Source: Rhodococcus triatomae BKS 15-14
Lineage (GTDB): Bacteria; Actinomycetota; Actinomycetes; Mycobacteriales; Mycobacteriaceae
Reading direction: 5' to 3'
Assembly (NCBI GenBank): GCA_000341795.1
Contig: AODO01000021.1
Location: 1 to 64,000, forward strand
Length of the DNA stretch: 64,000 nucleotides
The translations under genes and the position numbers were made by a program. Under the pieces are notes generated by a model that saw nothing but the letters and a program-made list of their open reading frames with translations, had not been told where the DNA came from and ran no database searches. Shown piece by piece: positions 7,137-35,360 of the stretch; the stretch's first letter is position 1, and each line of letters opens with the position of its first letter.

Positions 7137-10396
<3,260 letters not shown>

Positions 10397-30745: not shown

Positions 30746-31900
30746 ATGATGGAGGCGATGTCCGACGAACGCAACGCCCCTGGCGACCACCCGACACCCG
30801 ACGGCGGTGACACTCCGACGGCCGGCGGCTCCGGCGCTCCCCGTGGGGACGCCTGGTCCGGGCTCTCGCGCTGGACGGGCGGCACCCAGATGTCCGCGAA
30901 GACCACCCGGCGGGCCCTGATCGCCGTCGCACTCGGTGCCGTCCTCGCGGCACTCGCGACGATCGTCGTCTCCGGCGGGTTCAAGGGCGGCGACGAGCTG
31001 ACCACGCACGCGGGCAGCGTCGGCCCCAACCCGACCGGCGCCGTCGCCGGCGAGGCGTTCGCGACCGCAACCACGGGCGACTGCCTGACCTGGTCCGAGA
31101 CGGATGCCAGCGACCTGGAACAGGTCGAATGCTCGGACGAGCACCTCTTCGAGGTGGCGGCGGACATCGATCTGGCCGTGTTCCCCGGCGCCGAGTTCGG
31201 TCCCGGCTCGCGGTTCCCCAGCGTGCTGCGGTTCTCCCAGCTGCGCGACGAGCACTGCACTCCCGCCGTCACCGAGTACCTGGGCGCGCACTTCGACCCG
31301 CACGGCAAGTTCAGTGTCGGCCTGATCAATCCCGGCGAGGCGGGATGGGCGGCCGGCGAACGGACCATCCGCTGCGGGCTGCAACGGTCGAGCACGACGG
31401 GCACGATCCTGCCGGTGACGAACTCCGTCGCCGGGCAGGACCAGTCGAAGGTGTGGGACGCGGGCACCTGCATCGGCATCAACCAGAACGTGCCGAGCGA
31501 TCCGATGGACTGCACACAGGCGCACGCCTTCGAGGTGATCTCGGTGGTGGACCTGGCCGCGAAGTTCCCCGGCGGGTACCCCGCGGTCGGGGACCAGGAC
31601 TCCTATCTCGAGGAGACGTGTACCCAGGCCGCGGCCGAGTACCTCGGTTCCCCCGACGCCCTGAGAAACAAGACACTGACCCTGTTCTGGGACAACCTGG
31701 AGCTGAGCAGTTGGCTGGCCGGCAGCCGCAAGGTCAACTGCTCCGTCGGCAAGGAGATCGACGGCGGGTTCTCGCCCATCGTCGGCAGCGCCAAGGGCGA
31801 GATCCTGATCAACGGTGCGCCGCCGGTCGCACCGCCGCCACTGCCCGAGGGCCGATCCGTTCCGACGCCGTTGCCCGGCGCCGCTCCGCTGGAGAACTGA
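30746..31900 (+). CDS. Membrane protein with septum-formation domain (Rv3835-like)
   Basis: A 384-residue protein: a hydrophilic, Pro/Gly-rich cytosolic part (1-about 52), one transmembrane helix ([19 protein letters not shown]) and a long extracytoplasmic part with two related Cys-containing repeats (GDCLTWSET...[11 protein letters not shown] and GTCIGINQN...[11 protein letters not shown]). This is the Septum_form domain arrangement of Rv3835. The exact role in division is not established. The start at 30746 is one of three close ATG codons. It is translationally coupled to the metallopeptidase gene. Confidence 0.85.
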
Positions 31901-32250
31901 TGCCGGTCACCATGTCCGAGGCCCGGTTCGACGACCTGGTCTCCGAAGCCCTCGACCTGATCCCGCCCCGGCTGGCGGCCGCGATCGACAACGTCGTCGT
32001 GCTCGTCGACGCCCGCGACGAGGAGGATCCCGGTCTGCTCGGGCTGTACCAGGGCATCGCGCTCACCGAGCGGGACAGCCACTACGGCGGCTCGCTGCCC
32101 GACACCATCACCGTCTACCGCGAGGCCATCCTCGAGATGTGCGACTCGGAGGAGCAGGTGGTCGAGGAGGTCGCGATCACGGTGATCCACGAGATCGCGC
32201 ACTACTTCGGCATCGAAGAGGACCGCCTGCACGAGCTCGGCTGGGGCTGA
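31900..32250 (+). CDS. Minimal zinc metallopeptidase (Rv3836-like)
   Basis: A 116-residue cytosolic protein of the small zincin family. The HExxH motif is in VIHEIAHYFGIEEDRLHELG, giving two His ligands, the catalytic Glu and a further His. The ATG shares one base with the stop of the upstream septum-domain gene (TGATG), so the pair is co-translated, as in M. tuberculosis Rv3835-Rv3836. Substrate unknown. Confidence 0.9.
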   Translation: MPVTMSEARFDDLVSEALDLIPPRLAAAIDNVVVLVDARDEEDPGLLGLYQGIALTERDSHYGGSLPDTITVYREAILEMCDSEEQVVEEVAITVIHEIAHYFGIEEDRLHELGWG

Positions 32251-32285: not shown

Positions 32286-32366
32286 CGGACATCGTGGAAC
32301 CGTTCCGGCACGGGGTGCGTCCAACCTCCTGACGGATCAGTTCGATCAAGCCAGGAGGGCCGCACG

Positions 32367-32675
32367 TTGTCCGGACACGTCTTCGTCTCACCCGAGGCAC
32401 TGCTCGCCGCGGCCGCCCAGCTCGAGGCGCTGGCGGAACGGCTGCAGGCGACTGTGAACTCCTCCGCGCCCGCCCTCCACATGCCCCCCGCAGGCACGGA
32501 GGAGGTGTCGATCCTGACCGCATCGCACTTCAACTCGATCGCCGACAGCTTCCTGCCGGCAGCGGCGGCAGGCATCGCGGAACTGTGGGCCGCCGCGGCC
32601 ACGCTGCGCAAGCAGGCCGCCGAGTACGAGGGCCTCGACGCCTCCTTCGGCACCGTGCTCGCCTCCGGCATGTGA
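32367..32675 (+). CDS. PE-family protein (type VII secretion substrate)
   Basis: A 102-residue helical-hairpin protein. Pro9-Glu10 sits at the canonical PE place. The middle has PPAGTEEVSILTASHFNS, closely like the EVSxLTAxxF block of mycobacterial PE domains, and the C-terminal helix ends in YEGLD (87-91), a YxxxD/E type VII secretion signal. It should pair with the PPE protein encoded 30 bp downstream and be exported by an ESX system encoded elsewhere. A TTG start at 32367 follows AGGAGG at 8-bp spacing. Confidence 0.8.
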   Translation: MSGHVFVSPEALLAAAAQLEALAERLQATVNSSAPALHMPPAGTEEVSILTASHFNSIADSFLPAAAAGIAELWAAAATLRKQAAEYEGLDASFGTVLASGM

Positions 32676-32705
32676 CCGCCCACCTTCGACAGTAGGAGCT
32701 TCGCC

Positions 32706-33872
32706 ATGACCCTGGGATTCACCGGTGTCGTCTGGTACCCGCGCGGTGCGACGCTGAACTCGACCGCCCTCAACAGCGGAATCGGCCCGGCGCCCCTGAC
32801 CGCGGCCGGCAGCGCGTGGGCAGCGGTGTCCACGAGCTTCGCCGACGCCACCGTCACCGTCGCGAAGGTGATGGCCGACCTCGCGGCCGGCTGGGAGGGC
32901 GTCGCCGCGACCGCGGCGCTGAGCAGGCTGGCCCCGTTCCAGGTGTGGACGGAGCAGGCGTCGACGCAGGCCGCCACCGCGTCGGGCAAGGCGGCAGCGC
33001 TCGCGACCGCGCACACGGTGGCACGTGTGACGATGCCGAGCCTCGCGGAGATCGCCGCGGTTCAGGCCGCGAAGGTCGCCGCATACGCGGCGAGCGGTGC
33101 CCTGGTCGGTGCGGGTGCCGCGGCCGAAGCGGCGGATCGGGCGATGGACCTGAGGGCATCCCTGGTGATGGAGGCGTACGAGTCGGCCTCCACGATCGTC
33201 GCGTCACCGCAGAGCTTCACCTCCCCTCCGCCGCTGTCGAACGTCACCGCGGCCGCACCCGCGGCGGCGGGGCAGGAACCGGTGCCGACGGGCAACCCGG
33301 TCACCGACTTCCTCGTGAACCCGGCCCAGGCGGTGCAGAACGCGGTCGGCGCCGCCCTCGCGCAGCCGGCGAATCCCGCGGTCGTCGCTGCGGCGTCCCA
33401 GGCAGGCAGCATCGTCGGTACGGGCCTGAGCACGGTCGCCCAGGCGTCCGCGTCGTTCGCGCCCGCCGCGGCGGCCGCCATCGGTGGCGCGGGCGTCACG
33501 CAGACGGATCCGGCTGCGGTGCGCTCGGCGACGGGCGCGGAGACCCGCGCCGCACGGGCCGGCTCCCCGGGCATCTCGGGCCTGTCCGGCGCGACCGGAT
33601 CGTCCAGGGTGACACTCCCCGAGGGCTGGGGTGGCGGGGCGACGAACACCGGTCGCGCAGCATCCACCGGTGTTGCCACGCCGATCGCAGAGCCGGTCCG
33701 CGTCGACTCCGCGGCAGCGAACCGGTCGTCGCACGTCGGCGCGCCTCTCGGCTCCGGCGGCGCGCACGCCGCCGAGGACGAGGAGCGTCGCACCCCGGGC
33801 TACCTCAAGAGCTTCGAGCACTTCGAGGACGGTCGCGTCGTCATTCCGTCGGTCATCGGCGGCGACAGGTGA
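32706..33872 (+). CDS. PPE-family protein (type VII secretion substrate)
   Basis: A 388-residue Ala-rich protein. The N-terminal about 170 residues match the PPE helical domain, including the GPAPLTAAGSAWAAVSTSF block and WEG at 63-65 (the WxG turn). The Pro-Pro-Glu motif itself is replaced by WYPRG near residue 10. The remaining half is Ala/Gly/Ser-rich and low complexity, ending in a more polar segment (GYLKSFEHFEDGRVVIPSV). It probably forms a heterodimer with the PE protein, recognised by the EspG-like protein whose gene overlaps its stop. Confidence 0.78.
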   Translation: MTLGFTGVVWYPRGATLNSTALNSGIGPAPLTAAGSAWAAVSTSFADATVTVAKVMADLAAGWEGVAATAALSRLAPFQVWTEQASTQAATASGKAAALATAHTVARVTMPSLAEIAAVQAAKVAAYAASGALVGAGAAAEAADRAMDLRASLVMEAYESASTIVASPQSFTSPPPLSNVTAAAPAAAGQEPVPTGNPVTDFLVNPAQAVQNAVGAALAQPANPAVVAAASQAGSIVGTGLSTVAQASASFAPAAAAAIGGAGVTQTDPAAVRSATGAETRAARAGSPGISGLSGATGSSRVTLPEGWGGGATNTGRAASTGVATPIAEPVRVDSAAANRSSHVGAPLGSGGAHAAEDEERRTPGYLKSFEHFEDGRVVIPSVIGGDR

Positions 33873-34663
33873 CGCCGTCCGGACTGCGGCTTCCTGCCGT
33901 CACGGTCGGCGTGGACGAGCTCGACCTGCTGACCCACCTCGCCGGTATCGACGAGCTGCCGGTGGTGCTCGATGCGAAGTCGCGATTCGACACCGTCGTG
34001 GCGCGCGACGCCGCGTTCGAGCGCTGCCGCGAGTCGCTCGCGGAACGCGGCCTGCTCCCGGGTGGCCACCCTCATCCCGACCTCGTCGATCGGCTCACGA
34101 TCCTCGCCCGCGCCGACGTCGAGCTGGCGGTGCGGTGGTACCGCGACGGCACGGTGTCGCGGATGTGCCTCGCTCAGGCCGGACCGATGACGGTACTGGC
34201 ACTGCGCGGCCCGGACTCCTACGTCCTGACGGAGGTCGCGGCGGCTGGCGCGGAGCTGGTGCTCGACGTCATCGGGCGCGGTGTCCCCCTCGACGTGGAC
34301 TCGATCAGCGCGCCCACGGACCGGTTGGTACTCGCGCTCGGCGACCTCACCCACCCGCAGTCAGTGGCCCACCGGCTGACCGAGCTGGGTGCGCGGGACA
34401 CCGAGACGCTGGCGTGGGCGCTGTCGACCTGCACCGCGCACGCCGAGATCGTCGCCCTCGCCCAGGGCGACGGGCGCCGGTGGACGAGCGCACCTGTGAC
34501 GGTGTTCGACACCGCCGGGGGCCGGATCGTGGGCACCTCCACCGTCGCGCCGGACGGTACGGCCTGGTCGACGCTCGGGCCCGGCGGGGACGTTCGGGTC
34601 CGTCAGGCGGTCGGTGAACTGCTGACGTGGGCGGCTCGTCCGCACGGAGCCGGATCGTCCTGA
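33869..34663 (+). CDS. EspG-family chaperone-like protein
   Basis: A 264-residue cytosolic protein of the ESX secretion-associated EspG type. Starts VTVGVDELDLLTHLAGIDELPVVL, the EspG-like first strand and helix; the middle has RADVELAVRWYRDG and DSYVLTEV, and the protein ends with VRVRQAVGELLTW. In mycobacteria EspG binds PPE proteins in the cytosol and delivers PE-PPE pairs to their ESX system. The GTG overlaps the PPE stop by four bases (GTGA), so the three genes are one unit. Confidence 0.72.
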   Translation: MTPSGLRLPAVTVGVDELDLLTHLAGIDELPVVLDAKSRFDTVVARDAAFERCRESLAERGLLPGGHPHPDLVDRLTILARADVELAVRWYRDGTVSRMCLAQAGPMTVLALRGPDSYVLTEVAAAGAELVLDVIGRGVPLDVDSISAPTDRLVLALGDLTHPQSVAHRLTELGARDTETLAWALSTCTAHAEIVALAQGDGRRWTSAPVTVFDTAGGRIVGTSTVAPDGTAWSTLGPGGDVRVRQAVGELLTWAARPHGAGSS

Positions 34664-34733
34664 CGGGAACCCGGATCGCCTGCCGGTACCCTTCCCAGTG
34701 ACATTCCGGCGATCGAGACGTGTGGGTAGGGCA

Positions 34734-35360
34734 ATGGGTGAACCGGTCGGACCGGCACAGGACGAGCCGCAGATCGACTGGCGGCGGCTCGAAGAGGTGC
34801 AGCTGACGCCGATCCTGTCGGCGTCCCTCGACGCGTTCTACGAGCTCGGCTACCACGGGACGACGGTCCGGGAGGTGGCTCGCCGGGTCGGGGTGACGGT
34901 ACCCGCCCTGTACTACCACCACGAGAACAAAGAGGGCCTGCTGATCGCCCTGCTGGAGCTGTCGACGGCCGACGTGCTGGCGCGGGCGCACGCCGCCGAC
35001 GCCGACGGCGGCGACGACCCGGTGCAGCGGCTCGCGAACGTCGTCGAGGCGATCGTGCTGCGGATGACGACGCGGCCGCGGCTGGCGTCCCTGGAGGGCG
35101 AGGTCCGCTACCTGAGCGCGGAGAACCGGCAGCGGTATCGCGCGGTCCGCAAGGGCATCGAAGAGGTGGTGTTGCAGATCGTCGAGGCGGGAGCCGAGAG
35201 CGGCGCGTTCGACGTCGACGATCCCGCCGAGATCACTCGCGCCATTCTCGGTATGTGCCAGTCGATTCCGCGCTGGTACCACGCCGAAGGCACCCTGTCG
35301 CCGCAGGAGGTCGCGCGAAAGTACGTCGCGATCGCGATGAAAATTGTTGGTGCGAAATAG
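34734..35360 (+). CDS. TetR-family regulator (paralogue 1)
   Basis: A 208-residue TetR protein with HTH block TTVREVARRVGVTVPALYYHHENK. Its N-terminal domain and the AILGMCQSIPRWYHAEG segment are very similar to the TetR at 40678-41295. Related proteins regulate acyl-CoA catabolism. Start at 34734 with GGGTAGGG upstream; an earlier in-frame start at 34698 is possible. Confidence 0.86.
   Translation: MGEPVGPAQDEPQIDWRRLEEVQLTPILSASLDAFYELGYHGTTVREVARRVGVTVPALYYHHENKEGLLIALLELSTADVLARAHAADADGGDDPVQRLANVVEAIVLRMTTRPRLASLEGEVRYLSAENRQRYRAVRKGIEEVVLQIVEAGAESGAFDVDDPAEITRAILGMCQSIPRWYHAEGTLSPQEVARKYVAIAMKIVGAK

Follow-up and report, generated by a model that had tools for sequence, protein, structure and literature searches.

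The genome of Rhodococcus triatomae BKS 15-14 carries a compact gene trio encoding a PE protein, a PPE-domain protein and a predicted EspG chaperone, whereas the only EccB and EccE matches of the genome lie together on another contig, in a locus that appears ESX-4-like. Taken together, the analysis suggests that the trio probably encodes a PE-PPE substrate together with a chaperone of its own, for export through this distant ESX-4 system. The window, meaning the whole stretch of DNA that was analysed, comprises 64,000 nucleotides of contig C21 in an assembly of 5.82 Mb and 73 contigs.

The gene trio and its chromosomal site

The three genes exceed their curated Pfam cut-offs, the PE domain scoring 54 bits against 22 (PF00934), the PPE domain 80.9 bits against 26 (PF00823) and EspG 171 bits against 27 (PF14011), while no NCBIfam profile was over its cut-off for any of them. 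Pro-Glu stands at residues 9-10 of the PE protein, the PPE stop and the EspG start share four bases (33869-33872), and internal stops are absent. The PPE protein of the trio is a PPE-domain protein that lacks the Pro-Pro-Glu from which the family takes its name, its start reading TGVVWYPRG. The initial annotation had described three tightly spaced genes, a PE protein with this Pro-Glu and YEGLD, a PPE protein with a WEG turn and a replaced Pro-Pro-Glu motif, an EspG-like gene with the four-base overlap and a TetR gene in the flank; all of these were found as described (Table 1), and the profile search that it proposed recovered all three families. Values of dN/dS fell between 0.11 and 0.35 in ten of ten pairwise gene comparisons (three pairs of relatives, with one more pair for EspG). 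A chance match or false gene calls were ruled out by the profile scores, the folds, the retained overlap and dN/dS.

Table 1. Coordinates of the trio, its motifs and its immediate neighbours in the window
Feature	Position	Strand	Evidence
PE protein, 102 aa, TTG start	32367..32675	+	PF00934, E 2.2e-14, above cut-off
PPE protein, 388 aa	32706..33872	+	PF00823, E 1.4e-22; AF2 N-terminal domain like PPE4/15/41
EspG chaperone (predicted), 264 aa, GTG start	33869..34663	+	PF14011, E 4.1e-50; AF2 pLDDT 92
Shine-Dalgarno-like AGGAGG, 8 nt 5' of the PE TTG start	32353..32358	+	Sequence reading
YEGLD at the PE C-terminus, residues 87-91, matching the general type VII export motif YxxxD/E	32625..32639	+	
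TGVVWYPR, PPE N-terminal signature where Pro-Pro-Glu is expected	32721..32744	+	
WEG, the WxG turn in the helical hairpin of the PPE protein, W63-E64-G65	32892..32900	+	
Conserved C-terminal tail of the PPE protein, EDEERRTPGYLKSFEHFEDGRVVIPSVIGG, preceded by a low-complexity linker	33774..33863	+	
Zincin-like metallopeptidase, upstream neighbour, marker of the conserved insertion site	31900..32250	+	PF06262, 6.5e-31
TetR-family regulator, downstream neighbour	34698..35360	+	PF17932, 5e-30; PF00440, 1.5e-14

The structure check proposed at the outset was run on single chains, and the predicted folds of EspG and PPE match solved EspG3 and PPE4, PPE15 and PPE41, respectively. The AF2 model of EspG, built with 24 aligned relatives, is closest to EspG3 (4w4j; TM 0.85), and its 18 PDB matches at E <= 0.001 comprise EspG chains only. 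The AF2 model of the PPE protein (mean pLDDT 59.8, falling to 31-45 in the linker) is confident in the N-terminal domain only, and this domain aligns with PPE4, PPE15 and PPE41 at TM 0.82-0.87 by target length. The sole strands of the model, at residues 6-10 and 377-381, lie where confidence is low, and the model suggests that they may pair.

The trio is flanked by the zincin-like gene, a Septum_form gene (PF13845, 5.2e-83) and the seryl-tRNA synthetase gene serS, and a TetR gene also adjoins it at mapped loci L048 and L051. The initial annotation had called the flanking genes, apart from TetR, Rv3835/Rv3836-type. Among 57 mapped trio or PPE loci, which form the Pfam-found set, 29 from 12 genus groups occupy this serS/Septum_form/zincin site. 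A second, named set was drawn from 161 relatives found by a scan whose patterns included TGVxWxPR or the tail; 80 were kept, and 76 of these combine a complete trio with the same flank, in agreement with the conserved linkage across Rhodococcus and Nocardia that had been proposed for checking. The exceptions are two loci without EspG at a contig end, L216, which is cut upstream, and L164 of R. tukisamuensis, which lies elsewhere. The genera with the trio at this site are Rhodococcus, Prescottella, Rhodococcoides, Antrihabitans, Aldersonia and Nocardia; the window's nearest named relative is Rhodococcus sp. RD6.2 (PPE identity 69%, EspG identity 78%), and Prescottella (R.) equi is represented by L199 and L189. 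No ecc, mycP or wxg genes were found at any of the 80 named loci, in flanks of up to about 7 kb. Of 29 serS-site loci, 25 retain the four-base overlap between PPE and EspG, as do 75 of 78 named pairs. Across the family, 240 of 301 genomes contain an EspG match, and 55 of 62 chosen genomes have a PPE over the cut-off. Five-gene PE-PPE-EspG-WXG-WXG sets, with no ecc genes in the sequence retrieved around them, were also observed in other genera (L073, L082-L085, L097-L099), and the genomes carrying them have EccA.

Motif scores for the named set (80/80 and 77/78) are circular because the patterns served to find its members, and the Pfam-found set was used instead; the sole tail miss in the named set, L204, has the tail farther from its end. 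In the Pfam-found set TGVxWxPR is present in 29 of 57 loci, 23 of them at the serS site, and the tail pattern accompanies it in 28 of 29, the exception (L076) being cut by a contig end. Of the 28 loci without TGVxWxPR, 4 have the tail pattern, and two of these (L097, L105) look unlike the tail. Residues H372, F373, D375, G376, R377, V383 and G385 are invariant in 25 aligned PPEs. When 298 genomes of the order were searched, with 11 candidates scored per genome, the PPE protein gave matches of at least 166 bits in 11 genomes, all of this family, followed next by 106.6 bits; 35 genomes of other families gave PPE matches at E 4e-16 or weaker only. Among the genomes searched, the TGVxWxPR subfamily was found in the mycolic-acid family alone. 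A larger, conserved PPE/WXG-type protein was observed on contig C9 of the same genome (L013:6594-8405, minus strand) and at L127-L145. By eye its tail resembles that of the trio PPE (TPxYL ... PPV[IL]G) in 15 of the 20 loci inspected, four more loci having a looser ending and L135 none, and the likeness is a lead only, as a profile of the trio tail did not match it significantly (E 0.25-1.7).

The ESX-4-like locus and its probable link to the trio

The initial annotation had noted that EccB-E, MycP and EsxA/B are missing from the vicinity, and local models of EccB, EccC, EccD, EccE, MycP and two WXG100 proteins indeed gave no match in the window, where an ESX system hidden beside the trio was thereby ruled out. 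The search of the rest of the genome that it proposed yielded one EccB and one EccE match, both on contig C14, in the order rplQ-truA ... eccE(-) eccB(+) mycP(-) eccD(-) eccC(+) T7-associated(+) wxg(+) wxg(+). The mycobacterial locus L101 is taken to be ESX-4 from its gene order, and the T7-associated gene is taken to be Rv3446c-like. The two loci share the order and orientation wxg-wxg-Rv3446c-like-eccC-eccD-mycP-eccB, with eccD and mycP opposed; however, eccE is absent from L101. In a tree of EccB, EccC, EccD and MycP (34 rows, 2785 columns), C14 falls inside an ESX-4-like group of 27 of the 34 rows (SH-aLRT/UFBoot 97.9/78), apart from ESX-1/3-like rows, although the join with L101 itself is weak (90.5/60). 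The deep split of a tree of EccB alone is weak (71/96), and the assignment of C14 as ESX-4-like therefore relies on gene order and the four-protein tree. All 62 chosen genomes have EccB, 51 of them with exactly one match. One EccB match alone does not establish that a genome has only one ESX system, since genome G053 has one such match yet a second ecc gene set at L094, and EccE, present in 62 of 67 genomes, was therefore used as well. Where trio and EccB share a contig (G109, G083, G174, G152, G221), more than 1 Mb separates them.

The best evidence for ESX-4 as the probable partner of the trio comes from gene linkage at three loci of two genus groups, L059 (g25) and L071 and L072 (g14). There a trio whose PPE protein shares the start and tail seen in the window immediately adjoins eccE-eccB, and each of these genomes has a single EccB and a single EccE match. 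However, the EspGs of these loci fall outside the clade of 24 rows that holds the window's EspG (96/88), in the poorly resolved part of a group of 47 rows, which counts against ESX-4 export of the trio; the serS-site EspGs of g18, g21 and g24 also fall outside that clade. EspGs linked to ESX-1/3 form a separate group of seven rows (95/94). In the Nocardia-type genome G202, EccB loci were mapped at L088, L089 and L100 and trios at L088, L089 and L091; the serS-site trio would be the one left over for the ESX-4 locus L100.

The R. triatomae genome as a whole, the trio included, has a single PE match at a threshold of E 0.1, one PPE over the Pfam cut-off with two weak matches, and two EspG matches. 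The second EspG, on contig C17 (L012:1593-2369, minus strand; PF14011, 2.7e-26), has no PE/PPE mapped beside it; its neighbours are genes of the haemolysin-III family, of undecaprenyl diphosphate synthase type and of DUF255/thioredoxin type. Rv1085c is likewise a haemolysin-III homologue. Its secretion has been tied to ESX-4 in a study of M. tuberculosis (PMC10117145). The second EspG could pair with another ESX-4 substrate, a point against ESX-4 export of the trio. On contig C72 (L015 near 7905-8186, plus strand) a small protein encoded at a distance from the ESX locus matches the EspC family over its cut-off (PF10824, 31.4 bits).

A model of export and its alternatives

These data allow a model in which the operon would yield a PE-PPE heterodimer together with its own EspG chaperone, EspG capping the helical tip of the PPE protein in the cytoplasm. 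The dimer would carry a two-part export signal, WxG on the PPE protein and YxxxD on the PE protein, and would be delivered to the only ESX machine detected, the ESX-4-type system with EccE encoded elsewhere, for export to the cell surface or mycomembrane. As EccA gave no match in this genome, nor in 40 of 62 genomes searched, release from EspG would proceed without EccA; however, one of six genomes of the window's genus, that of the relative G021, has EccA, which speaks against EccA-free export. Complex formation, chaperoning, export and surface location are proposed from mycobacterial precedent, and a function at the mycomembrane from mycobacterial PE/PPE proteins and the family-limited distribution. 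The initial suggestion of a substrate-chaperone module, early or detached, that relies on a distant ESX system fits the single EccB and EccE on another contig, in the ESX-4-like locus.

The export motifs bear on this model in both directions. All 33 Rhodococcus-type named loci retain both WxG and YxxxD/E, as do 3 of 4 from Antrihabitans, but neither of the two from Aldersonia and none of 41 from Nocardia does so; in Nocardia WxG is absent throughout and the Tyr of YxxxD/E in 20 of 41. These counts come from related sequences and may reflect few events. Such a pattern agrees with export that continues in Rhodococcus and a role that has changed in Nocardia, a genus with additional ESX systems; the Nocardia losses count against ESX-4 export. 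At the place of WxG the Nocardia serS-site PPEs (L163-L225) have Gly-[Leu/Met]-x-[Gly/Ser], and about half of the PEs there have His for Tyr. Precedent also argues against ESX-4 export, as M. abscessus ESX-4 has EccE4, yet PE5/PPE4 and MAB_0046/0047 are reported to need ESX-3 rather than ESX-4 (PMC11791044), and a section heading in another study states that the localization of PPE36 and PPE62 in M. tuberculosis is unaffected by ESX-4 (PMC10117145).

An alternative scenario, which we regard as unlikely, would derive the trio from an ESX-4EVOL or ESX-3-like locus that has lost its machinery, with the cargo and chaperone left behind and now acting inside the cell or by some other route. Trios do lie within ESX-4EVOL-type loci of related genera (L081, L088, L103, L104, L086), and the motif losses in Nocardia would fit loss of export there. 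However, the purifying selection in all ten comparisons, the intact motifs of every Rhodococcus-type locus, the single site across at least six named genera and the separation of EspGs of the trio's type from those linked to ESX-1/3 all speak against decay. It is also quite improbable that the trio is a mobile substrate-chaperone cassette that came from a plasmid or another source of ESX genes, entered the serS site and serves as optional cargo, given a site that is fixed in the 12 genus groups and in nearly all named loci; the trios that g27 and R. tukisamuensis carry elsewhere (L076, L077, L050/L164), a g27 genome (G068) with EccB but no strong PPE, and the plasmid-mediated character of the published model (PMC4791881) would favour such mobility. 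Viral carriage was rejected, EspG having no relative in the viral collection, which likewise weighs against a mobile cassette. Very improbable, finally, is a trio that serves as the outer-membrane part of an ESX-4 exporter for the WXG100 pair rather than as cargo. An outer-membrane transport role of PPE has been proposed for ESX-5 (PMC10597459), and the confinement of the TGVxWxPR subfamily to the mycolic-acid family agrees with it, but ESX-4-type loci without the trio exist (G068, G003), and the trio is therefore not indispensable.

Export of a chaperoned PE-PPE substrate by the distant ESX-4 system thus remains our preferred reading. A more far-reaching version of it is tentative: PE-PPE-EspG may be an old ESX-4 cargo module that predates ESX-3 and works without EccA, with a lineage-specific PPE latch in which the TGVxW strand pairs with the C-terminal DGR-V-P-VIG strand, and with the like tail of the second PPE/WXG-type protein marking other ESX-4 substrates.

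Known systems and implications for the family

What was already known in 2010, from R. equi 103S, is a single PE/PPE pair at this site, in an operon (REQ01750-60), together with one ESX-4 locus, the position of the pair being common to other rhodococci and N. farcinica (PMC2947987). The pair and the window's trio are alike in their single PE and single PPE, the PE gene first, the chromosomal position and the single ESX-4 elsewhere. That paper states in general terms that the ESX apparatus also mediates PE/PPE export; its main text is without 'EspG', REQ01770 or 'chaperone', and no signature motifs or ESX-linked relatives were found in it (PMC2947987). In the open-access literature no prior report was found of the EspG partner, the TGVxWxPR start, the C-terminal tail or the ESX-4 linkage, although mention elsewhere is possible. 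PE5-PPE4-EspG3 of mycobacterial ESX-3 (6uuj, 6vhr) resembles the trio in gene content, folds and export motifs, 6uuj being the best structural match of the PPE protein and EspG reaching TM 0.80-0.85 to EspG3. However, sequence identity is low (24-30%), and PE5-PPE4-EspG3 lies inside the ESX-3 locus with EccA, its PPE4 having Pro-Pro-Glu, whereas the window's trio has TGVxWxPR and a conserved C-tail.

The ESX-4EVOL clusters offer another comparison, as they are ESX-4-related loci of mycolic-acid bacteria that include eccE, espG, pe and ppe (PMC4791881). They enclose the trio, eccA and espI within the machinery cluster, whereas here the trio is on C21, the machinery on C14 and EccA was not found. 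In that study R. equi, R. erythropolis and R. opacus are listed as ESX-4 only, and the gain of eccA, eccE, espG, pe and ppe is dated after the divergence of Rhodococcus (Newton-Foot 2016, PMC4791881). Rhodococcus has both an EccE encoded next to EccB and the serS-site trio, which conflicts with this dating unless they were acquired separately. A review places EspG in most T7SSa, bar some ESX-4 subtypes (PMC11217815).

In mycobacteria the many copies of PE and PPE proteins and the several ESX systems make these proteins difficult to study. Where a genome holds a single PE, a single PPE and an EspG linked to them, with only one ESX-4-like system detected, export of PE/PPE by ESX-4 becomes testable by single gene removals, and the Nocardia loci without WxG provide a natural contrast. 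If ESX-4 does export PE/PPE in these organisms, the published plasmid-borne gain of pe, ppe, espG and eccE after the divergence of Rhodococcus would need revision (PMC4791881).
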